A stretch of DNA of 50,322 nucleotides from a virus. Shown here one piece after another: positions 1,593 to 9,301 of this stretch. Position numbers and translations under genes: made by a program. How positions within the stretch are numbered: the stretch's first letter is position 1; each line of letters starts with the position of its first letter. The stretch is from positions 1 through 50,322 of IMG/VR virus record IMGVR_UViG_3300010885_013193; one strand, given 5' to 3'. The notes under the pieces were generated by a model, which saw only the letters and a list, made by a program, of their open reading frames with translations, did no database searches and had not been told where the DNA came from.

Positions 1593-1599
1593 AGTAGCC

Positions 1600-1660
1600 G
1601 CTGCGGAGTCTGGTTTTTACAGGGCCATCCCATTTCGGGGTGGCCTTTTTCTTTTCCTGA
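1600..1660 (+). promoter_or_regulatory. Motif/terminator-like leader 4 (upstream of the amidoligase)
   Basis: Motif at 1600-1611. Strong hairpin with stem GGCCATCCC (1623-1631) / GGGGTGGCC (1637-1645), followed by a T-rich tract from 1646, the layout of a rho-independent terminator. A GAGGAGG site and the ATG at 1671 follow at once, so a terminator here would act as a leader attenuator. It is nearly the same as the leader at 3890-3950. Confidence 0.6.
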
Positions 1661-1670
1661 GGAGGACGGC

Positions 1671-2960
1671 ATGTCCACAGAGAACGAAGTCCAGATCGAG
1701 TACGACGTTTACGGCTTCTCCCGCAACGGCATCCATCGTGACACGGGCACGGAGTATGGCCCGGATGGGTTCAACCGCTACGGCTTCAACGAGGAAGGCT
1801 ACGACCGCTCCGGGTACGACGAGAACGGGTACGACCGCAGTCGATTCGATGAAGACGGATGGCACGAGGAAGGATGGCACCGTGACACGCACACGGAGTT
1901 CTCCCCCAACAGACGCACTCGTGATGGCTCACGCTACAACGACAGTGGCTACGACGCGGACGGATACGACTCCGATGGCATAGACGAGGATGGGTTCTAC
2001 CGTGATGGGTATAACGACGACGGCGAGGATCGCAACGGCTTCAGTCGCTGCGATAACGGCGACTGCGACGATGAGTATTGCTCATGCCGCAACGCTGGCT
2101 GCGATGAACTGCTCGACTCCTGTGCGTGCGTTCTTGAGGAGACTGGCTGGCAGAGGCACGCCTACCGTCGCACCTCACCGACGATAGCGTTCGAGTTCGA
2201 GTGCATCTCCTATTCGACAGCGAACGAAGCACGCGGTCGTCTTCTCAATGCCTACAACCCGGCATACGAGGAACTTGTATGCAAAACAAGCACCGGCGAT
2301 GGTGCCATCTGCAAGCAGGACGGATCTCTTCCCGACACTGGCGTCGAGTTCGTCACGGTGCCGATGTTTCTCGACGAGCATAGGTCTGTGCTGAGAAAGG
2401 CTTTCCGCAACAAGTTCGGTGACGGCTCCGTATCCTCGTGGAACCACACCAAGTGCGGGATGCACGTGCATCTTGCTCGCACCAGCCTGTCGAACCTGAC
2501 GCTGGGCAAGATGCTGTGCTTCATGCACCAGCCAGCCAATGTGCCGTTCCACGTTGCGATTGCTGGTCGCCAGAGTACGTACGCTCAGTTCGTGCATCAC
2601 CGCAGTGCCGTCAGCACTGGCCTGCCAGACAAGGCAGGGAGGGGAGACAAGTATTCGGCACTCAATGTCAAGCCCTACACCGTTGAGTTCCGCATCTTCC
2701 GCCCGTCGTGCAAGTTCGAGACGCTGCTCAAGAACCTGTGCTACTGCCTTGCGGTGCGTGACTTTTGCAGGCAGTCGTCCCTTGACTACCGCGCTTTGAG
2801 TGCGAGTGCGTTCCTGCTGTGGCTTGGCACGACCGACGCTCGCCGCACGTACCGCGAACTCGACGCTTGGTTGCGTGAATCGGACAGCGATTACGGACGG
2901 TCCTATCTGGCGACTGCCCTGCCCGTGCCGAAGCCGAAGCCCGCTCCCGTTGTTGCCTGA
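1671..2960 (+). CDS. Amidoligase-like enzyme with N-terminal acidic pentapeptide repeats, 429 aa
   Basis: Residues about 14-124 are tandem five-residue units of the form D-x-x-G-Y/F, such as DRSGY, DENGY, DADGY and DEDGF. Residues 127-153 hold seven cysteines that could bind metal. Residues about 172-395 look like the glutamine-synthetase-fold amidoligase family (Amidoligase_2 type): FEFECISY, KQDGSLPDTGVEFV, CGMHVHLA and VKPYTVEFRIFRPS. Family members are predicted to use ATP to join an amine to a carboxylate. The next gene is a class II glutamine amidotransferase, which could supply ammonia or swap an amide. Substrate unknown; the acidic repeats may be a substrate of the enzyme itself, which is inference. 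The start at 1671 has a GAGGAGG site. Family call fairly sure, biological role open. Confidence 0.75.
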   Translation: MSTENEVQIEYDVYGFSRNGIHRDTGTEYGPDGFNRYGFNEEGYDRSGYDENGYDRSRFDEDGWHEEGWHRDTHTEFSPNRRTRDGSRYNDSGYDADGYDSDGIDEDGFYRDGYNDDGEDRNGFSRCDNGDCDDEYCSCRNAGCDELLDSCACVLEETGWQRHAYRRTSPTIAFEFECISYSTANEARGRLLNAYNPAYEELVCKTSTGDGAICKQDGSLPDTGVEFVTVPMFLDEHRSVLRKAFRNKFGDGSVSSWNHTKCGMHVHLARTSLSNLTLGKMLCFMHQPANVPFHVAIAGRQSTYAQFVHHRSAVSTGLPDKAGRGDKYSALNVKPYTVEFRIFRPSCKFETLLKNLCYCLAVRDFCRQSSLDYRALSASAFLLWLGTTDARRTYRELDAWLRESDSDYGRSYLATALPVPKPKPAPVVA

Positions 2961-2998
2961 GTCTCACTTCTATCCCTAACTACACAGGAGAATCCTTC

Positions 2999-3883
2999 AT
3001 GTGCCTCGCAATCTACAAGCCCGCCGATACAGCCGCCGACTGGACTGCCTACGAGAACGGATACGCAGACAACCCGCACTCGTGGGGGTTCGCTGCCATT
3101 GTCGATGGTCAACTCGTGACCCGCTGCGGCATCGGCACGTTCGCTGAGTTCCGCTCTGCGTTCGAGCCGCACGCCAACTGCAAGGCGATCATCCACTTCC
3201 GATTCGCCACGCACGGCAGCAAGACGGAGGCCAACTGCCATCCGTTCCTCGTCGCAAGCGATCTTGCCGTCATTCACAACGGCATCATCGACATCAAGTG
3301 CAACGTCCACTCAGACCGCTCTGATACGTGGCATTTCAATGAGTTGATTCTCAAGCCACTTCACCAGCGTGACCCGGACTTCTTCGTGCGTCCAGAGATT
3401 CGGTACACACAGCAGTTAGCCCATCGTGGCAGCAAGTTCGTGTTCCTGCGGGCCGATGGCACGCACGACATCTGGGCTGAGAGCGACGGATGCTGGGAGA
3501 AAGACGGCCACTGGTACAGCAACACGGGCTACAAGTACAGCCGCGTTGCGTACTACACCGCCAGCAATTCGTCCGGTTCAGCGAGCCGGTCGATGTCGTG
3601 CCATCGTGACCTGTCGCCTACCGACTTAGACGACACGCCGATCATGACGAAGCATGAGGTGACGTTCGACCTTGAGGCTGACACTCGTGACCTCGTGAGA
3701 GAGTACGACTACGAGCAGGGGTCGATGTTGCGTGACCCGTACGAGTACGACGAACTCTCCTCGCCAAGCCTTGAGGAGATCGCCCAGTTGCTTCTCGACT
3801 ACGGGTATTCCGAAGCCGTACTCAAGGAGGTGTACGACATCGGTGGCAAGTTCGGGCTGGAGTCTCTGGCAGAAACCCTTTGA
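2999..3883 (+). CDS. Class II (Ntn-type) glutamine amidotransferase, 294 aa
   Basis: The protein begins Met-Cys, giving the N-terminal cysteine nucleophile after Met removal (MCLAIYKP). The family signatures follow in order: HSWGFAAI (27-34), HFRFATHG (66-73), NCHPF (79-83) and HNGII (93-97). These enzymes release ammonia from glutamine and pass it to a partner or fused synthase. No synthase domain is fused here, and the C-terminal 190 residues are not recognised. The gene follows the amidoligase after 38 bases with its own ACAGGAG site, so the two probably work together. After it comes the second copy of the motif/terminator-like leader. Confidence 0.8.
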   Translation: MCLAIYKPADTAADWTAYENGYADNPHSWGFAAIVDGQLVTRCGIGTFAEFRSAFEPHANCKAIIHFRFATHGSKTEANCHPFLVASDLAVIHNGIIDIKCNVHSDRSDTWHFNELILKPLHQRDPDFFVRPEIRYTQQLAHRGSKFVFLRADGTHDIWAESDGCWEKDGHWYSNTGYKYSRVAYYTASNSSGSASRSMSCHRDLSPTDLDDTPIMTKHEVTFDLEADTRDLVREYDYEQGSMLRDPYEYDELSSPSLEEIAQLLLDYGYSEAVLKEVYDIGGKFGLESLAETL

Positions 3884-3889
3884 TCCTTC

Positions 3890-3950
3890 GATGCGGAGTC
3901 TGGCTTTTGTTGGGCCATCCCAGTGCGGGGTGGCCTTGTTCTTTTTCACA
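3890..3950 (+). promoter_or_regulatory. Motif/terminator-like leader 5 (near-copy of leader 4)
   Basis: Motif variant GATGCGGAGTCT at 3890-3901. The hairpin stem GGCCATCCC (3913-3921) / GGGGTGGCC (3927-3935) is identical to that of leader 4, and is followed by a T-rich tract and an AAGGAG site. Together the two leaders bracket the amidoligase and amidotransferase genes. Confidence 0.6.
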
Positions 3951-3961
3951 AGGAGTTTGAC

Positions 3962-4525
3962 ATGCGTTTCTTTACCAACTGGATTGAGTCCATCGTTCGT
4001 GGTTGTGTGCGTGAGTGCCTGTTCGATTCTGCTGACGCTCGACAGTTGTTCGCCAACACGGTGTCGGCGGAAGTGGCACAGGCGATGCGTGATGTTGCCT
4101 GCACGCCAGAGCAGATGTCCTCTCACTTGGACTACCGGAAGTTAGCGGAGAAGGTGGCTGTCGATGAGGTGGCCCGATACGTGGATATTGTTCGACTCTC
4201 CGACATCGTGGCGGATAACGTGGAGATCGACAGCAGCGACATCGCCACCCGCGTGGCACGCAACCTCGACATGGATGATGTCGCGTCACATGTCGCAGAC
4301 GAGATCGACATGGGGCAGGTGTGCGAGCAGTGCGCTGAGAAGATAGAGGTAGATGAGGATGCTGTAGTCGAGCGTGCCGCAGAGATTGCGGCAGAGAACG
4401 TGGACAACGACGAGGTGGCGGCGAAGGTGGCAGAGAACATCGACTGGGAGGCTGACGTTCTCGACTACGAGACTCTTGCGAAGGCGTTGCTCGCGTGCTT
4501 CGCAAAGTCCGTCACCAAGTCCTGA
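3962..4525 (+). CDS. Acidic protein built of 13-residue repeats, 187 aa
   Basis: The ATG at 3962 follows AAGGAG; the in-frame start at 3923 lies inside the leader hairpin and is rejected. Residues about 57-165 repeat a roughly 13-residue unit of the form D-x-D-[DE]-V-A-x-x-V-A-x-x-I. Examples are DMDDVASHVADEI, DMGQVCEQCAEKI and DNDEVAAKVAENI. The regular spacing of Val/Ala/Ile with acidic caps suggests short helices forming a rod or scaffold. I do not recognise the family. Strongly acidic; could act as a binding scaffold or DNA mimic, which is speculation. Confidence 0.65.
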   Translation: MRFFTNWIESIVRGCVRECLFDSADARQLFANTVSAEVAQAMRDVACTPEQMSSHLDYRKLAEKVAVDEVARYVDIVRLSDIVADNVEIDSSDIATRVARNLDMDDVASHVADEIDMGQVCEQCAEKIEVDEDAVVERAAEIAAENVDNDEVAAKVAENIDWEADVLDYETLAKALLACFAKSVTKS

Positions 4526-5974: not shown

Positions 5975-6002
5975 CGTCCCTTTCTATATGAGGAGTTTTC
6001 CT

Positions 6003-7106
6003 ATGGCTCGTACCACTCTTGGCAACAGCCCTGCGTTCCTTGCCTGTCAGGTCACGCCCACCCTCGTGCGTGGCGGAACAGGCGTCGGCAAGTCCTCCAC
6101 GTGGGAGGCACTCGCTGCTGCACTGGGCAGGACATTCGTGCCCCTGCTTGGTGCCACCCACCTGCCCGAAGATTTCTCTGGCTATCCCACGCCAGACCAC
6201 AAGGCACAGGTCACTCGCATGATGGCCTCGTCGTGGGTCGTCAAGACCCGCGACGGCAAGGCACTCGTCCACGTTGACGAGGTGACGAACGTAGCACCCG
6301 CCACTCAAGCGGGCCTGCTCTCAGTCATCTCTGAGCGGCGTGTCGGTGACGAGGTGATGCCTGAGTCCACCATCGTAGTGGGTTCGTGCAACCCGCCTGA
6401 ACTGTGCCCCAATGCAGTGCCGCTGTCGCCTGCCATGCGGGCACGGTTCTTCCACCACGACTGGGTTGTGGACTACGACCACTGGTTTGCTGGCCTGCGG
6501 GCTGGCTGCGTGTGGACGGCACCGGAGTTCCCGATTGTCCCGTCGCACTGGACTGAGTTCCTCCCCAAGTTCGGCTCGCTTGTCGAGGCGTTCTTGCGTG
6601 CAGCACCTGACTGCCGTGAGAAGTTGCCGACCGATGACGAGACGATGAGTTTCCCCAACCCCCGCACGTGGACGTATCTTGCCAAGTGCTTCGCCGCTGC
6701 CGATGCGTGTGGCTACGAGCGGAAAGATCCCATGTTCAAGGCTCTCGCTCTTGGCTGCGTGGGAGAGGCAGTCGGCGGTGAGTTCCTGCGGTACGTCCAT
6801 CAGTTGGACTTGCTCGACCCGGAGTCGATCCTGTCCGGTGCGGCAACCTACACCTACGAGAAGCGGCCCGATGCCAACATTTGCCTGCTCACTGGTCTGG
6901 TGAAGGGGCTGCGGTCCAACTCCACGAAGGAGCGGTGGCTTGCCGCTTCCGATGCGTTCATTGAGATCGGCACGCATGAGATCGAGTCGTTCCTCATGCA
7001 GTTCAAGTCCTTCTGGCGTCCGGTCAAGGACGGTGGCGTTCGGCCCGATGGCTGGTCGCCCCCGAAGGATGTGCTTGCCAAGTTGATGGCACTGGTTCAG
7101 TCTTGA
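6003..7106 (+). CDS. MoxR-type AAA+ ATPase, 367 aa
   Basis: Walker A is GGTGVGKS at residues 24-31, Walker B LVHVDE at 88-93, a sensor-1-like Asn in VGSCNPPE at about 130, and a likely arginine finger in MRARF at about 145-149. MoxR ATPases work with VWA-domain partners to remodel or activate protein complexes, as in the RavA-ViaA and NorQ-NorD pairs. Here a VWA/metallopeptidase gene lies 0.7 kb downstream in the same run. The start at 6003 has a GAGGAG site; longer in-frame starts would run through the leader hairpin. The target of the module is unknown. Confidence 0.85.
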   Translation: MARTTLGNSPAFLACQVTPTLVRGGTGVGKSSTWEALAAALGRTFVPLLGATHLPEDFSGYPTPDHKAQVTRMMASSWVVKTRDGKALVHVDEVTNVAPATQAGLLSVISERRVGDEVMPESTIVVGSCNPPELCPNAVPLSPAMRARFFHHDWVVDYDHWFAGLRAGCVWTAPEFPIVPSHWTEFLPKFGSLVEAFLRAAPDCREKLPTDDETMSFPNPRTWTYLAKCFAAADACGYERKDPMFKALALGCVGEAVGGEFLRYVHQLDLLDPESILSGAATYTYEKRPDANICLLTGLVKGLRSNSTKERWLAASDAFIEIGTHEIESFLMQFKSFWRPVKDGGVRPDGWSPPKDVLAKLMALVQS

Positions 7107-7428: not shown

Positions 7429-7853
7429 AGTGTTCTATCTGCAACAAAGAGATAGCCGTCAAGGAGGGCGGCTGGGATAGCGGCAACAACGCACAGCCAG
7501 TGAACGATGGTCGGTGTTGCGACGAGTGCAACGCTACGGTGGTGATACCCGCGCGTCTGGCTGAAGTGGGAGACAGGCAGGATTCGGACGAAGAGGAGCC
7601 GGAACACTGGCTCTACCTGCGGAACTGGCACGGATTCACCAGCGTTGTTAGCGAGGGAGAGAAGTGGTCGGTTGCGTATGAGATGACCGGGAAAACGGGC
7701 AGGCTGTTTGCCGCCGCTCCTTCCATGCTCACAACCCTGCGTGACTTGCGTAGGGAGATGAAGTCTGGCTCGATCCTTGATGCGGGAAACATCGAGGCGT
7801 GGATCAAGGAACTCGACACCGTTATTGCCAATGCGGAAGGGAGGGATGAATGA
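7425..7853 (+). CDS. Zinc-ribbon hypothetical protein, 142 aa
   Basis: The ATG at 7425 overlaps the previous stop and has AAGGAGG upstream. The N-terminus has two cysteine knuckles, CSICNKE and CCDECN, 28 residues apart, a likely zinc ribbon. A short acidic linker follows, then a domain with LYLRNWHGFTSV and a helical end. No function can be assigned. The stop overlaps the VWA gene start as ATGA. Confidence 0.65.
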   Translation: MKCSICNKEIAVKEGGWDSGNNAQPVNDGRCCDECNATVVIPARLAEVGDRQDSDEEEPEHWLYLRNWHGFTSVVSEGEKWSVAYEMTGKTGRLFAAAPSMLTTLRDLRREMKSGSILDAGNIEAWIKELDTVIANAEGRDE

Positions 7854-9301
7854 CACCACGACAACTACTGGGCCAAGCAAGGGTACATACCTTCGAGTAC
7901 GTACCCTACCTTGCGTCCTACATCTACAGCCTGCGTGAGCAGGAGACTCCGGGCATCGGCACTGCTGCCGTTGACCAAGCGGGCAACCTCTACTGGTGCC
8001 CGGAGTTCATCACCAAGATCGGCAAGGAACAGGGTGCATACGTCGTGGCCCACGAGGTATTGCACATCATCTACCAGCACCATGTACGAGCGAAGGAGAT
8101 CATCGGGGATCACCCGACTGAACTCCAGCGATACGTGTGCAATGTGGCTGGCGATCTTGTTGTCGAGCAGACGCTATCCATGATGCGGCACCTTCGACCA
8201 GAGGGTGCCATCCATCTGGGCAGCGACATCCCCAACTGGGGAATCAAGTTGAACTTTCCTGAGAACAAGTCGATGCAGGAATACTATCGACTCATCATGG
8301 AGAAGTTGCAGTCCAAGCACAAGCAGTCACAGAAAGGAGATAGCGATGGCAAAGGCGACAGTGAACGGAGTGCCGACAGAAGCGACGAACAGGGCGATTC
8401 AGGAGACGGCGCTGCTGATTCAAGTGATGGAAACGACGACGCCGACTTCATCCCCGAAGATGACGGCACTGAGGCGGATGGCAAGGGCACTCAGGCTGAC
8501 AGCGGAAAGGGGTCGCCTTCGAGTGGGAAGGGCAAGGCGCCGCCGCTGCCCTGTTCTCCGGGCAGTGGCGGCTCGTGTGCGGACGGTCAGCCACGCGAGT
8601 ATGAGGTAGATAACGACGGGTCATGGGAGACGTACGCAGAAGACATGGCCGCTGCCCAAGCGGAGGTAGCCATCGCGGAGTATGAGGAGTCACATCCCGG
8701 CAGTGTTCCGGGCCAGATCAAGCAAGCCCTCGACTGCAAACTGCGACCGCAACCTGACCCGTTCGATCAGTTGCGGTCTGCTGTTTGCACGAGCGTTGCC
8801 TCGCCGGTCGGTGGTCGTGACTTCTCGCACCGCCGCCGGTCCCGCAAGCAGCCGCCCGGAGAGGATGATCCGCTGCTGCATGGCCGCATCACAGTGCAGC
8901 CCCATGCAGTCGTGATCGTGGACACGTCGATGTCCATGATGACGAAGGACACGCAGGCTCGTGCCCTGTCAGTGATCGGTCAGGGTCTGCGGAAGTTGTC
9001 TCGTGTTCGCGTCTACTGCGCTGACACCCATGTCCGCTCGAACAAGTTGGTGGCACACACCCGCACGTTTGAGTGGGCCGGTGGCGGTGGCACAGACATG
9101 GCTCTGGCACTGGAAGAAGTTGATCGCCGCGACCATCCAGACTCCATCATCATCGTCACCGACGCTGAGACGGACTGGCCGACGAAGAGGCTGCACGCTC
9201 GTGTGGTCGTGGCCTACACAGGCAAGCGTGATTCGTACTACCACAAGTTGATACCCAAGTCCTATCGCACCGTTCCACTGGAAGGAGGGGCTAATGCCTA
9301 A
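7850..9301 (+). CDS. Metallopeptidase-like/VWA-domain protein, 483 aa (MoxR partner)
   Basis: The N-terminal part carries HEVLHIIYQHH from residue 68, an HExxH zinc motif typical of the predicted metallopeptidase half of DUF2201-type proteins. Residues about 160-240 are a low-complexity Ser/Asp/Gly linker. The C-terminal part is a VWA fold with a complete MIDAS: DTSMS (358-362), Thr415 in GGGTDM and Asp438 in VTDAE. Proteins of this plan are usually encoded with a MoxR ATPase, as here, and are thought to be chaperone-like adaptors. Whether the peptidase site is active is not known. Confidence 0.82.
   Translation: MTPRQLLGQARVHTFEYVPYLASYIYSLREQETPGIGTAAVDQAGNLYWCPEFITKIGKEQGAYVVAHEVLHIIYQHHVRAKEIIGDHPTELQRYVCNVAGDLVVEQTLSMMRHLRPEGAIHLGSDIPNWGIKLNFPENKSMQEYYRLIMEKLQSKHKQSQKGDSDGKGDSERSADRSDEQGDSGDGAADSSDGNDDADFIPEDDGTEADGKGTQADSGKGSPSSGKGKAPPLPCSPGSGGSCADGQPREYEVDNDGSWETYAEDMAAAQAEVAIAEYEESHPGSVPGQIKQALDCKLRPQPDPFDQLRSAVCTSVASPVGGRDFSHRRRSRKQPPGEDDPLLHGRITVQPHAVVIVDTSMSMMTKDTQARALSVIGQGLRKLSRVRVYCADTHVRSNKLVAHTRTFEWAGGGGTDMALALEEVDRRDHPDSIIIVTDAETDWPTKRLHARVVVAYTGKRDSYYHKLIPKSYRTVPLEGGANA

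Follow-up and report, generated by a model that had tools for sequence, protein, structure and literature searches.

A phage amidoligase-glutamine amidotransferase pair with a D-x-x-G-Y repeat array where most relatives have a zinc-ribbon-like module

The pairing of an amidoligase gene with a class II glutamine amidotransferase (GAT) gene is an already known phage cassette, with examples in Marvin, MEP402 and the tf/LUZ24 phages. In LUZ24-like phages the two are accompanied by genes for a COOH-NH2 ligase and an ATP-grasp protein (PMC3890496), both are present in the published genome of phage tf (PMC3517423), and both occur in OM43 phages (PMC10580990). In the literature found, the function of the pair is only predicted. 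PMC10580990 cites a proposal that the phiEco32 pair modifies the cell wall against superinfection, and reports that the Marvin pair has been proposed to serve secondary-metabolite synthesis or host interaction.

The locus described here is part of a 50,322-base IMG/VR record (the window). The window is tailed-phage DNA, with portal, tail, baseplate, recombinase, helicase and exonuclease families found among its ORFs, and is possibly incomplete, as one ORF runs past its right end. PADLOC defence annotation gave no match, and Rfam and tRNA scans were empty. The two ORFs at the center of this work have the boundaries given in the original prediction, and the features of the locus are as follows.

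1598-1612, plus strand: copy CCGCTGCGGAGTCTG of a repeated intergenic element that recurs throughout the phage, before the amidoligase gene (repeat count against expectation)
1621-1657, plus strand: leader hairpin GGGCCATCCC/GGGGTGGCC with a U-tract, just 5' of the amidoligase ribosome-binding site (terminator-like scan; fold z = -3.2)
1671-2960, plus strand: amidoligase gene, 429 amino acids, comprising array, Cys linker and predicted glutamine-synthetase (GS)-fold core (profiles, alignments, AlphaFold, Foldseek)
1698-2045, plus strand: D-x-x-G-[YFWI] array, residues 10-125, about 115 residues (period-5 test; predicted folded)
2046-2168, plus strand: seven-Cys linker, residues 126-166 (mostly low confidence in the AlphaFold model)
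2172-2930, plus strand: predicted GS-fold amidoligase core, residues 168-420 (alignments, AlphaFold, Foldseek)
2999-3883, plus strand: class II GAT gene, 294 amino acids (profiles, alignment)
3888-3945, plus strand: second copy of element and hairpin, 3' of the GAT gene (86% identical over 57 nt to 1599-1655)

The 14-base element CCGCTGCGGAGTCT(GG) has nine plus-strand copies in the left 6 kb of the window (at 146, 704, 1002, 1448, 1598, 3888, 4531, 4935 and 5933), and 12 matches with up to three mismatches were counted against 3.4 expected. Most relatives carry approximately 8 to 12 copies per locus; the element was found in L004, L006, L033, L039, L041, L045, L054 and L059 and was not found in L086. 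It is likely a phage regulatory element. The pairing of the leader hairpin is maintained in relatives through an A-T to G-C exchange, and the amidoligase ATG that follows has GAGGAGG upstream as its ribosome-binding site. The second hairpin and U-tract (3912-3945) lie directly before the ribosome-binding site of the ORF at 3953-4525, and the two copies may act as a terminator or attenuator. This ORF encodes a 190-residue acidic protein of repeated IDxxxVAxxVAxxID-like stretches, for which no family match and, in the related loci tested, no homologue was found.

The C-terminal domain of the amidoligase matched the PHROG profiles phrog_16683 (1.5e-11) and phrog_7469, annotated as amidoligase enzyme (2e-4). 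Our own amidoligase HMM scored the window protein at 2.6e-80, the protein being part of the HMM seed. By itself, the window amidoligase was below the detection of Pfam PF12224, and a scan of the window record also gave no match, which reflects a sensitivity limit. PF12224 was reached by 29 of the 35 aligned relatives, and the full-length array-bearing proteins of L107 (1.5e-7) and L104 (8e-6) also matched. Thirteen residues were invariant in the amidoligase alignments of 37 to 39 sequences (E175, E177, D217, S219, G224, E226, G263, H265, N290, R300, E339, R341 and F343), and the conserved active-site-type residues of the core (acidic, His, Arg) are E175, E177, D217, E226, H265, N290, R300, E339 and R341. 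The core was modelled confidently by AlphaFold, from aligned sequences that did not include three rows taken from named phage records. In Foldseek, the model matched glutamine synthetase (5dm3, 8.1e-6) as well as GCS2/YbdK, Dop and PafA, with a probability of about 1 but a low whole-chain TM score, and in BFVD it matched many phage amidoligases. Together, the profiles, invariant residues and predicted structure place the C-terminal domain with the phage Amidoligase_2 proteins of the glutamine-synthetase fold. This agrees with the original prediction of a GS-fold amidoligase, and no profile search put the domain in another fold.

A four-member profile of the GAT found the GlmS glutaminase domain at 1.4e-9. 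The residues C2, R68, H72-G73, N94-G95 and D109 were invariant in alignment A2; from what is known of GlmS, we take them to be the N-terminal Cys nucleophile and the oxyanion-hole/substrate residues. The assignment to class II GATs, with intact catalytic residues, was thus upheld. When back-translated and used as the sole query, the window protein recovered no relatives; relatives were found with a scan of IMG/VR based on the four-family alignment A3, which gave 442 confirmed relatives; 80 of their loci were retrieved. The 69 distinct amidoligase ORFs counted are from all loci retrieved. In 68 of these 69, a GAT gene lies on the same strand within 1.5 kb, and the exception ends at the contig end. 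The pairing in the original prediction was thus upheld. The named phages MEP402, ctgrD200 and Marvin all carry the two genes.

The array upstream of the core had been described as about 100 residues of D-x-x-G-Y repeats. The period of five is real: identity at lag 5 was 32, whereas 20,000 shuffles averaged 11.2 and never exceeded 28. The units are, however, looser than strict DxxGY, with D or N at position 1, G at position 4 and Y, F, I or W at position 5. The array holds 15 G-aromatic/Ile units and has a net charge of about -21. In the full-length AlphaFold model, residues 11-120 had block pLDDT values of 78 to 94, and isolated bridges recurred at intervals of about five residues. Predicted alone, the array had a mean pLDDT of 81.7, and the other four models were lower and more variable. 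A comparison with PDB structures gave no match at E <= 10. The models are suggestive of a folded array, although AlphaFold may be overconfident on repeats. Homology to pentapeptide-repeat (Rfr) proteins was considered and rejected. The tblastn matches in P22-like and Edwardsiella phages were antisense to annotated genes, namely, antisense frames of true pentapeptide-repeat genes (L084 2250-2894 and L085 1772-2440). The Rfr proteins of P22-like phages have a period of five residues in common with the array, but the matches are an artefact and not homology; the window array had no Rfr-family match in Pfam and no A(D/N)LxX pattern on the sense strand.

The linker contains the seven Cys residues originally noticed, at positions 127, 132, 137, 139, 144, 151 and 153, but only the first four, in a C-x4-C-x4-C-x-C arrangement, are largely retained in the nearest array-bearing relatives; the other three are not.

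The presence of an array on an amidoligase is not a one-off arrangement. One phage group contains about a dozen contigs in which array, amidoligase and GAT follow one another in this order, and most of these contigs also have downstream genes in common with the window (a 320-amino-acid ORF, a MoxR-type ATPase, a DUF2201 metallopeptidase/VWA protein and a recombinase). In this phage group, the MoxR-type AAA ATPase at 5988-7106 (77-92% identity) and the DUF2201 metallopeptidase/VWA protein at 7850-9301 (about 68-72% identity) are conserved downstream of the cassette. Independent pattern scans found two further array-bearing amidoligase lineages. One comprises L107 and L214, the latter a contig of a Mucilaginibacter MAG, and is sister to the ribbon-bearing L070. 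The other is L104, a 163-kb phage contig that is sister to the ribbon-bearing Marvin gp105. When the tree was labelled for the array, three changes were forced by well-supported branches, L104 and Marvin being long branches. In a test of N-termini for CxxC...CxxC (n = 69), 41 were ribbon-like, 11 had an array, none had both and 17 had neither, the last class including L054 and L059, which carry arrays just under the run-length threshold, and several others with degenerate Cys pairs. Among the 69 amidoligases, the CxxC...CxxC pair was absent from the window protein and from every array-bearing relative. Because the same core is preceded by either an array or a ribbon and never by both, the two appear to be alternatives to each other at the N-terminus of one and the same catalytic pair. 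What is new at this locus is that a D-x-x-G-Y array occupies the place of the ribbon of most relatives; the amidoligase-GAT pair itself is known. A separate phage amidoligase (L031 4380-5624) has 42 Cys in its N-terminal 200 residues, which seem to form consecutive CxxC zinc-binding motifs.

The idea that the array is specific to amidoligases was rejected, as pattern scans placed arrays in many unrelated proteins, with up to 51 consecutive units among the matches listed. A scan of a genome collection for the strict array motif gave at least 118 prokaryote stretches. The matches listed included real arrays in Nitrosopumilus, Syntrophomonas, Clostridia, Planctomycetota and others, some making up whole proteins, and an amidoligase was present in one locus among these matches. 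Array proteins elsewhere were also considered as trans substrates of an amidoligase: of 34 other array-bearing viral records, one had PF12224 elsewhere in the record (L250, which also has a GAT), a result that speaks neither for nor against this reading. D-x-x-G-Y arrays are widespread among bacteria, archaea and viruses and, among the matches listed, nearly always occur without an amidoligase. The stand-alone array proteins of Nitrosopumilus, Syntrophomonas, Clostridia and others share with the window array both the unit and the variant GIHxDTGTxY, which is repeated in distant organisms, but have no amidoligase in the chain. Many units elsewhere have N instead of D at position 1. Two D-x-x-G-[YF] arrays searched against Pfam gave no specific match.

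The contexts of these arrays are varied. In L154, L187, L201, L163, L177 and L208 (Sporotomaculum, Syntrophomonas, Nitrosopumilus and Sporosarcina), arrays form a large part or the whole of proteins. Viral arrays are joined to a PI3K/HipA-like kinase domain (L114 5540-7219), fused to multi-CxxC domains (L111, L113 and L115), placed inside giant proteins that reach 2,000 amino acids (L094, L101 and L103) or form C-terminal tails in a family of adjacent paralogues (L092 and L130).

The rate of change of the array was compared in the near-identical phages L045, L054 and L059, the core of which is only about 32% identical to that of the window; these phages are not its closest kin. The 120 bases upstream of the gene were 99-100% identical and codons 171-410 were 97.5-98% identical, whereas the first 130 codons, which encode the array, had 78-98% identity depending on the block. 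There were 38 to 65 differences per 390 array bases against 15 to 18 per 720 core bases (Fisher 4e-7 to 2e-17). The array differences were spread evenly over codon positions, and array length did not change among the three phages. L033 and L034 were identical except for the stretch from array to linker. Both synonymous and nonsynonymous rates were raised in the array, a pattern compatible with diversifying selection, with relaxed constraint and with recombination or conversion acting locally. If relaxed constraint or local recombination is the cause, the variability need not reflect any role in recognition. The substitutions were of mixed type, 51-62% of them involving A, and included third positions. 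This substitution pattern argues against a diversity-generating retroelement as the cause.

The explanation that accounts best for these observations, and which we consider fairly probable, is an ordinary amidation enzyme of two components whose array is exchangeable, evolves fast and binds a target or partner, the target being a host molecule and not the enzyme itself. The class II GAT would hydrolyze glutamine and hand the ammonia to the amidoligase, which would activate a carboxylate of the target with ATP; the activated carboxylate would then become an amide or be joined to another amine. The array, which would replace the zinc-ribbon-like module at the N-terminus of most related phage amidoligases, may fold into a small repeat module and bind the target or partner, as the ribbon may do in other relatives. 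The binding role is inferred from module exchange and evolution rate.

Alternatively, the array may be a passive spacer or solubility tail without a specific partner, and the enzymes may act on the cell wall or another envelope target, as proposed for phiEco32. Change at all codon positions of the array is in line with such a tail, and proposals in the literature on phage amidoligases point at the cell wall. However, the D, G and aromatic positions are retained while others vary and GIHxDTGTxY recurs in distant organisms, indicating that the array is a module under constraint, and its exchange with the ribbon suggests a role. This alternative is possible but unlikely.

The original prediction was that the Asp and Glu side chains of the array are acceptors, so that the amidoligase would amidate them, or attach amines to them, in its own chain. 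The array is indeed part of the enzyme's own chain, it is both acidic and regular, its tether to the enzyme resembles that of a cis substrate, and the two have been joined in three lineages, far above chance for two rare features. Yet the array is absent from most amidoligase-GAT pairs and the enzyme is absent alongside most arrays (present with 1 among at least 118 prokaryote stretches). Because arrays are common without an amidoligase, the array is not a dedicated substrate. Its predicted folding and quick change, and the N in place of D in many units elsewhere, also speak against self-modification, which has no specific support and which we regard as doubtful. Class II GAT domains participate in some phage DNA-base pathways. 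A role in modifying the bases of phage DNA or in producing a small metabolite, with no macromolecular target, is highly improbable for the pair despite this precedent and the secondary-metabolite role suggested for Marvin (as reported in PMC10580990), as no base-modification genes were recognized among the window ORFs scanned and arrays and ribbons suggest a macromolecular partner.

For the two-component enzyme with a binding array, an N-terminal module that is exchangeable and outpaces the core in close relatives is a pointer to where specificity may lie, and the array would be a direct bait for the target of a widespread phage enzyme pair. It is conceivable, though we hold it only tentatively, that the array is a folded module for target recognition, of a class not described before, which diversifies rapidly and aims the ligase at a fast-changing host molecule, with the zinc ribbon serving for other targets. 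Searches turned up neither a specific Pfam model nor a solved fold for the array, so that a single structure would help to annotate many proteins.

Among known systems, Marvin gp105/gp106, the Methylophilales phages MEP401/402 and ctgrD200 resemble the window in both families (PF12224 amidoligase and class II GAT), in adjacency and order of the genes and in core residues. Their amidoligases have CxxC ribbon-like N-termini, whereas the window has the array and the four-Cys motif. The LUZ24-like and phiEco32-type clusters have the amidoligase and class II GAT in the early gene region, as does the window, but they also hold a COOH-NH2 ligase and an ATP-grasp protein. Neither of these families was recognized among the larger window ORFs, the small ORFs having been partly scanned and the record being seemingly incomplete. 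PafA and Dop (Pup ligase and depupylase), glutamine synthetase and GCS2/YbdK share the predicted fold and the GS-fold carboxylate chemistry with the window amidoligase, at about 10-15% sequence identity. No Pup gene was recognized in the window, which has a GAT partner instead; PafA provides a precedent for a protein target of a GS-fold ligase.
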